A stretch of 9,342 nucleotides of DNA from positions 1 through 9,342 of the forward strand of contig CALINM010000093.1 in assembly GCA_938045315.1 (NCBI GenBank), given 5' to 3'. This DNA comes from an uncultured bacterium (GTDB lineage: Bacteria; CALINM01). Positions 8,235 through 9,342 of this stretch are shown here, one piece after another. Positions within the stretch are counted from its first letter, which is position 1; each line of letters opens with the position of its first letter. The translations under genes and the position numbers were made by a program. The notes under the pieces were generated by a model that was not told where the DNA came from, made no database searches, and saw only the letters and a program-made list of their open reading frames with translations.

Positions 8235-8327
8235 TGGCGGAGGGGGAGGGATTCGAACCCCCGGTTCCGCTTCAAACGGAACAGTGATTTTCAAGACCAC
8301 CGCCTTCAACCACTCGGCCACCCCTCC
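8235..8327 (-). tRNA. tRNA-Ser(UGA), CCA encoded
   Basis: Class II tRNA of 90 nt plus a genomically encoded CCA (8237-8235). The acceptor GGAGGGG pairs with CCCCTCC, followed by U8 G9, with discriminator G at 8238. The anticodon arm is GTGGT-CTTGAAA-ATCAC with anticodon TGA, reading UCA and, by wobble, other UCN codons. The long variable arm pairs TTCCG with CGGAA, and the T arm is GGGGG-TTCGAAT-CCCTC with one G-U pair. Its G1 at 8327 is also the third base of the serS stop codon, so the tRNA must be co-transcribed with, and cut from, the serS message. Confidence 0.97.
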
Positions 8328-9342
8328 TAATTTATTATCTCTACTCCACCCATGTATTTTTTTAGTACCTCTGGGACTGTGATACTCCCATCTTCATTCT
8401 GGTAGTTTTCTAATATTGCTGCAAGCGTTCTTCCCACAGCCAGCCCTGAACCATTTAGAGTATGAACATACTCAGCTTTTTTACCACACTTTGGTTTAAA
8501 TTTTATATTCATTCTCCTAGCTTGATAATCTTCAAAATTACTACACGAAGATATCTCTTTATAGCCATTGTATGATGGTAAATAAACTTCTATATCATAA
8601 GTCTTAGCAGATGCAAAACCTAAGTCACCAGTACAGAGTACAACTACCCTGTATGGTAATTCTAATTCTTGCAATACCTTTTCTGCATCGTTAGTCAATT
8701 TTTCTAATTCTTCATAAGATTTGTCAGGATGGACAAACTTTACTAATTCAACTTTATCAAATTGATGCTGTCTAATTAAGCCTTTAGTATCTTTACCATA
8801 GGAACCAGCTTCTGCTCTAAAACAGGGTGTGTAGGCTGTAAAATAAATAGGCAATTTTTCTTCGGGAATTATTTCGTCTCTATAATAATTAGTCACTGGC
8901 ACCTCTGCAGTGGGTATAAGATAATAGTCCCAGTTCTCTATTTTAAACAAATCTTCAGCAAATTTTGGTAGCTGCCCTGTACCTGTCATACTCTCTCTAT
9001 TTACAATAAATGGAGGCAACATTTCTATATATCCGTGTTTATTTGTATGTAAATCTAACATAAAATTAATTATAGCTCTTTCTAATCTTGCACCATATTT
9101 TTTTAGTATAGAAAATCTTGCTCCCGTAAGTTTACCCGCTCTTTGGAAGTCAATTATATCTAATTTTTCTCCAATTTCCCAGTGTGGTTTTGGTTCGAAA
9201 TTAAATTTTTTTGGTTCACCATAGGTTCTAATAACTATGTTATCCTCAGAAGTTTTACCAATGGGAACGCTTATATGGGGTATGTTAGGTATACTAAGAA
9301 TTAAGTTGCTATGCTCATTTTCTATATCGCTTAATTCTTTTT
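8327..9342 (-). CDS. serS: seryl-tRNA synthetase, 5'-truncated by the window edge
   Basis: Class IIa aminoacyl-tRNA synthetase that charges tRNA-Ser and also serylates tRNA-Sec, the first step toward the selenocysteine that SelB in this window delivers. The frame is open from the right edge; ATG 9061 is internal, because catalytic-domain residues lie before it ([36 protein letters not shown]). Numbering visible codons from 9340, 337 residues are present; about 90 N-terminal residues, most of the tRNA-binding coiled-coil arm, are outside. Motif 1 is around [12 protein letters not shown], the TAEVP loop at 144-148, motif 2 FRAEAG at 174-179 with RQHQF at 190-194, and motif 3 GSGLAVGRT at 297-305. 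The TAG stop (8329-8327) overlaps the first nucleotide of tRNA-Ser(UGA) by one base. Confidence 0.97.

Follow-up and report, generated by a model that had tools for sequence, protein, structure and literature searches.

Does the sharing of a nucleotide between the gene for seryl-tRNA synthetase and the gene for one of its tRNAs link the output of the two, or is it incidental to the close packing of an operon? The locus that raises this question lies on a 9,342-nt stretch of DNA from an uncultured bacterium (CALINM010000093.1, positions 1–9342, referred to as the window). Here serS occupies positions 8327–9342 of the minus strand as a 337-aa ORF that runs to the window edge, its 5' end lying outside; the homologues in two relatives, G001 and G002, are full-length with 431 codons. 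The ORF was identified as seryl-tRNA synthetase by NCBIfam TIGR00414 (525 bits against a cut-off of 302). Directly downstream on the same strand, as also in G001 and G002, is tRNA-Ser(UGA), placed at 8327–8235 by ARAGORN with a 5' end that agrees with the Rfam RF00005 match (57.4 bits). On the minus strand, the 3' end of serS reads ...GGT GGA GTA GAG ATA ATA AAT TAG and is followed by GAGGGGTGGCCGAG; at the boundary itself, ...GAG ATA ATA AAT TAG abuts GAGGGGTGGCC. The G of the stop codon TAG (8329–8327) is nucleotide 1 of the tRNA, an overlap of exactly 1 nt.

The ORF end at 8327 and the two tRNA predictions together confirm this overlap, which had been noted in the initial annotation, as well as the 7-bp acceptor stem beginning GGAGGGG described there, which pairs with CCCCTCC. 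The discriminator is G73 and the CCA is encoded in the window copy. The body of the tRNA is not translated as a C-terminal extension of the synthetase, which ends ...GGVEIIN ahead of the tRNA with the single nucleotide shared. When a tRNA starting with G stands at the end of a coding sequence, TAG followed by G needs spacing alone, and thus the coincidence by itself carries little statistical weight.

Conservation of the junction was evaluated in three species genomes of this small phylum: that of the window, G001 from the same genus and G002 from another genus of the same family. SerS of G001 is 90% identical to that of the window and its junction, AAT TAG GAGAGG, has the identical 1-nt overlap, indicating that the overlap is not a sequencing error. 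The four codons before the overlap are also identical in these two species; identity of the overlap and of the codons preceding it would be expected under selection as well. In G002 the junction is AAA TAG T GGAGAGG, a complete stop codon and then a 1-nt gap, on the canonical reading of the tRNA with G1 and G73 (ARAGORN starts this tRNA one base earlier, which we set aside as it would put U opposite G73). The site of RNase P cleavage thus falls before the end of the serS stop codon in the window and in G001 but not in G002, where cleavage would leave a normal stop. Loss of the overlap in close relatives, named in the initial annotation as grounds for rejecting its reading, is thus seen at the level of the family, and a nonstop message does not invariably accompany the arrangement. 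What is conserved is the adjacency; the nonstop consequence would extend no further than the genus.

The order serS, tRNA-Ser(UGA), tRNA-Ser(GCU) is common to all three genomes. In the window the second tRNA lies at 7786–7876 (minus strand), and the ARAGORN tRNA ends put the two tRNA-Ser genes ~360 nt apart (spacer 7877–8234), compared with ~55 nt in G001 and ~50 nt in G002. An Rfam search of this spacer returned no family; it contains one promoter-like site with a TG element, at 8089–8062. The tRNAs are followed by a 168-aa ORF with a lipoprotein-like signal (7256–7762, minus strand), for which an NCBIfam search gave no match and which is likely the last gene of the cluster; in G001 the tRNA is likewise followed by an ORF, whose start (ATGAAGAAAATTGTATGTGGGGG) is similar. 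A terminator-like hairpin with a 12-bp stem and a T tail (7208–7236, minus strand) then marks the probable end of the operon.

Is the tRNA made from the serS transcript or from a promoter of its own? If a promoter within the 3' end of serS drove the tRNAs separately, the overlap would be without consequence for the serS message. Promoters inside genes do occur in bacteria, and a weak promoter-like match (9 of 12 positions) is present at 8528–8500. This match lies ~170 nt upstream, however, reaches only the minimal score of 9/12 and sits in AT-rich DNA; 14 such sites are found over 2.1 kb, compared with 7.4 ± 2.8 in shuffled sequence. A scan of the final ~170 nt of serS, directed at sigma70-type sites, found nothing nearer, and we consider separate transcription unlikely. 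With no intergenic room, no promoter-like site within ~170 nt and a conserved gene order, a serS-tRNA co-transcript is likely, in support of the single transcript proposed initially, and read-through from serS would be the simplest and most likely source of tRNA-Ser(UGA). A comparable mRNA-tRNA polycistronic transcript, processed by RNase P, is that of E. coli secG-leuU, to judge from the title of Mohanty and Kushner 2008 as cited in PMC3985628.

If the 1-nt overlap served to couple the enzyme to its substrate, it might be expected wherever the two genes adjoin. Among 80 serS loci sampled across many phyla, 14 have a tRNA-Ser(UGA) on the same strand just after serS, separated from it by 8 to 189 nt or, in one case, overlapping it. 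Within the class of the Acidobacteriota locus L079, 19 of the 70 serS ends inspected are followed by tRNA-Ser(UGA) (gaps of 8 to 312 nt), as are 10 of 11 in the class of locus L006 (7 to 103 nt). The adjacency thus recurs widely, while the gaps vary freely from 7 to ~300 nt and overlaps are rare. These tandems resemble that of the window in their genes, order and strand but usually differ in having a gap of 7–300 nt, such that the stop codon survives the RNase P cut. An extreme case is L079 itself (3460–3580, a single Acidobacteriota MAG), where serS extends 37 nt into tRNA-Ser(UGA) and terminates at a TGA that is the tRNA anticodon itself, and where the C-terminal tail of SerS, EGWPSGRRRRS, is read from the 5' half of the tRNA; the 37-nt overlap is absent from all inspected relatives of the class. 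At a further locus of this class (L165:1–562, in G016), the serS frame continues through ambiguous bases (NN) into what looks like a separate domain, and the ORF ends 10 nt inside tRNA-Ser(UGA); this is either a fusion or an assembly join. At L129, a tRNA-Ser stands directly behind the serS stop but on the opposite strand, and close proximity therefore occurs without co-transcription.

The genome of the window also supplies a control in which gene and tRNA are not cognate. A census of ORFs of at least 90 codons around all 41 tRNA genes of the assembly revealed joins of -10 nt for ispE, -1 for serS, +6 for a MerR-family gene (merR), +7 for a GYD-domain gene and +9 for a lipoprotein-like ORF. 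Three further overlaps involve no recognisable gene and were taken as chance ORFs, those at L122 and L105 having no Pfam match and that at L085 resembling, for the most part, the translated sequence of adjacent tRNAs. The isoprenoid gene ispE, encoding a GHMP kinase, ends 10 nt inside tRNA-Gln(UUG) in all three phylum genomes (L158, G000:C10 near 16405; L159, G001:C95; L160, G002:C22), and in each its stop codon TAG is supplied by U8-A9-G10 of the tRNA. As at serS, a gene runs into the tRNA that follows on the same strand; unlike serS, the gene product is functionally unrelated to the tRNA (IspE has no known functional tie to glutamine tRNA) and the stop lies inside the tRNA rather than at its first base. 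A survey of 25 chosen genomes with the TIGR00154 profile indicated that ispE is often followed by tRNA-Gln(UUG) in other phyla too: the Hydrogenobacter MAG L242 has a join of -10 nt, Desulforhopalus vacuolatus (L235) one of -21 nt and the Desulfocapsaceae MAG L230 one of 0 nt, and the remaining joins range from 9 to 197 nt. In another class, the IspE protein of the phylum used as query gave almost no matches, and the TIGR00154 profile gave weak matches that were all below the cut-off. Overlap is thus not specific to cognate pairs, as ispE/tRNA-Gln is deeper and more conserved here than serS/tRNA-Ser, and a gene that overlaps a tRNA can be explained without cognate coupling. By the same reading of the sequence, nonstop ends like those at serS are to be expected at the ispE/tRNA-Gln overlaps.

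These comparisons bear directly on the notion of dedicated feedback, in which RNase P cleavage destroys the serS stop such that tRNA maturation lowers SerS, either directly or via tmRNA tagging, while terminating ribosomes protect the tRNA, the two effects keeping enzyme and substrate in balance. The geometry permits such a circuit, the overlap is kept in G001, and the tRNA-Ser(UGA) copy is the only one with a UGA anticodon found in the assembly (the census lists tRNA-Ser species GCU, UGA and GGA, one copy each). The same logic has moreover been proposed for selB/selC: tRNA-Sec genes are nested in or partly overlap the selB ORF, and processing was proposed to give a nonstop selB mRNA and hence either-or expression of protein and tRNA (Mukai 2021, PMC8124441). 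The nonstop, either-or idea at serS is therefore not new. For a serS/tRNA-Ser overlap as such, literature searches confined to open-licence papers turned up no previous account, which argues only weakly that none exists. In both cases the gene of a translation factor overlaps, on the same strand, the tRNA it serves; however, in selB translation runs through the entire tRNA or through its first 48 nt whereas 1 nt is shared here, which makes the serS case a milder one in another gene pair, with a different tRNA and protein. In closely related strains, the selB/selC overlap has been lost by gain of a stop before the tRNA (PMC8124441).

Set against this are the complete stop codon in G002, the gaps of 7–300 nt that separate most serS-tRNA-Ser pairs elsewhere and the deeper, more conserved overlap of the non-cognate ispE/tRNA-Gln; the overlap is simply not conserved wherever the serS-tRNA-Ser(UGA) pair is. 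The synthetase-substrate coupling put forward in the initial annotation is thus unsupported, and although dedicated coupling is possible given the arrangement, nothing specific speaks for it and we regard the feedback circuit as very improbable. The claim that a single molecule allows either serS translation or tRNA maturation but not both also goes too far, since a transcript can be translated by numerous ribosomes ahead of RNase P cleavage and even so give rise to one tRNA. A narrower version, in which tRNA-Ser(UGA) processing and serS termination compete in this genus so that the rate of maturation sets SerS via nonstop rescue, would amount to autoregulation of a synthetase without any extra factor; we hold it to be, if anything, even less probable.

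The best explanation, and in our judgement a very likely one, is a compact co-directional operon of serS, tRNA-Ser(UGA), tRNA-Ser(GCU) and a small lipoprotein-like gene in which the overlap is incidental to close packing. The serS overlap is real, conserved within the genus and ordinary in kind: tight or overlapping joins between genes and tRNAs recur here and in other bacteria, for unrelated enzymes as well, which probably reflects ordinary compact operons and not a special circuit. In such an operon, a serS-led transcript would be made, RNase P would cut before G1 of the tRNA and 3' nucleases would finish the tRNA, the serS stop borrowing the first base of the tRNA much as other genes borrow U8-A9-G10. 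Because G1 is the G of the stop codon, the cut serS mRNA is predicted to end in UA, as had been noted; a ribosome arriving at this nonstop end would be left with UA in its A site and would depend on rescue, presumably by tmRNA/SmpB. In both G001 and G002, the genes for tmRNA and SmpB are adjacent. A search of the assembly to which the window belongs (92% complete) recovered neither, which fits the loss of a single contig, though both may be truly absent. SerS is essential, and hence most of it would come from transcripts still uncut, or cutting would have to be slow. A ribosome halted at a stop codon occupies about 12 nucleotides beyond it, and a terminating serS ribosome would therefore shield the acceptor strand of the tRNA; the same applies to any gap below ~12 nt and is thus shared with ordinary cases of 7–10 nt.

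Were the overlap regulatory, it would connect a synthetase to its tRNA with no protein in between. For now its value lies in exemplifying a wider, little-studied pattern among bacterial genes, in which all or part of the stop codon comes from the tRNA that follows, as at ispE and serS. Making the tRNA should then yield a nonstop message, and it becomes possible to test, as a general question, the frequency with which RNase P cleavage generates substrates for ribosome rescue. For this, the recurring ispE/tRNA-Gln overlap is a more promising lead than serS/tRNA-Ser. As a further observation at the serS junction, predicted folding of the RNA (8235–8360, minus strand) pairs the codons GGU GGA near the 3' end of serS with UCCGCC at the 3' end of the tRNA; pairing of a leader with the 3' RCCA is reported to hinder RNase P (PMC9433436).
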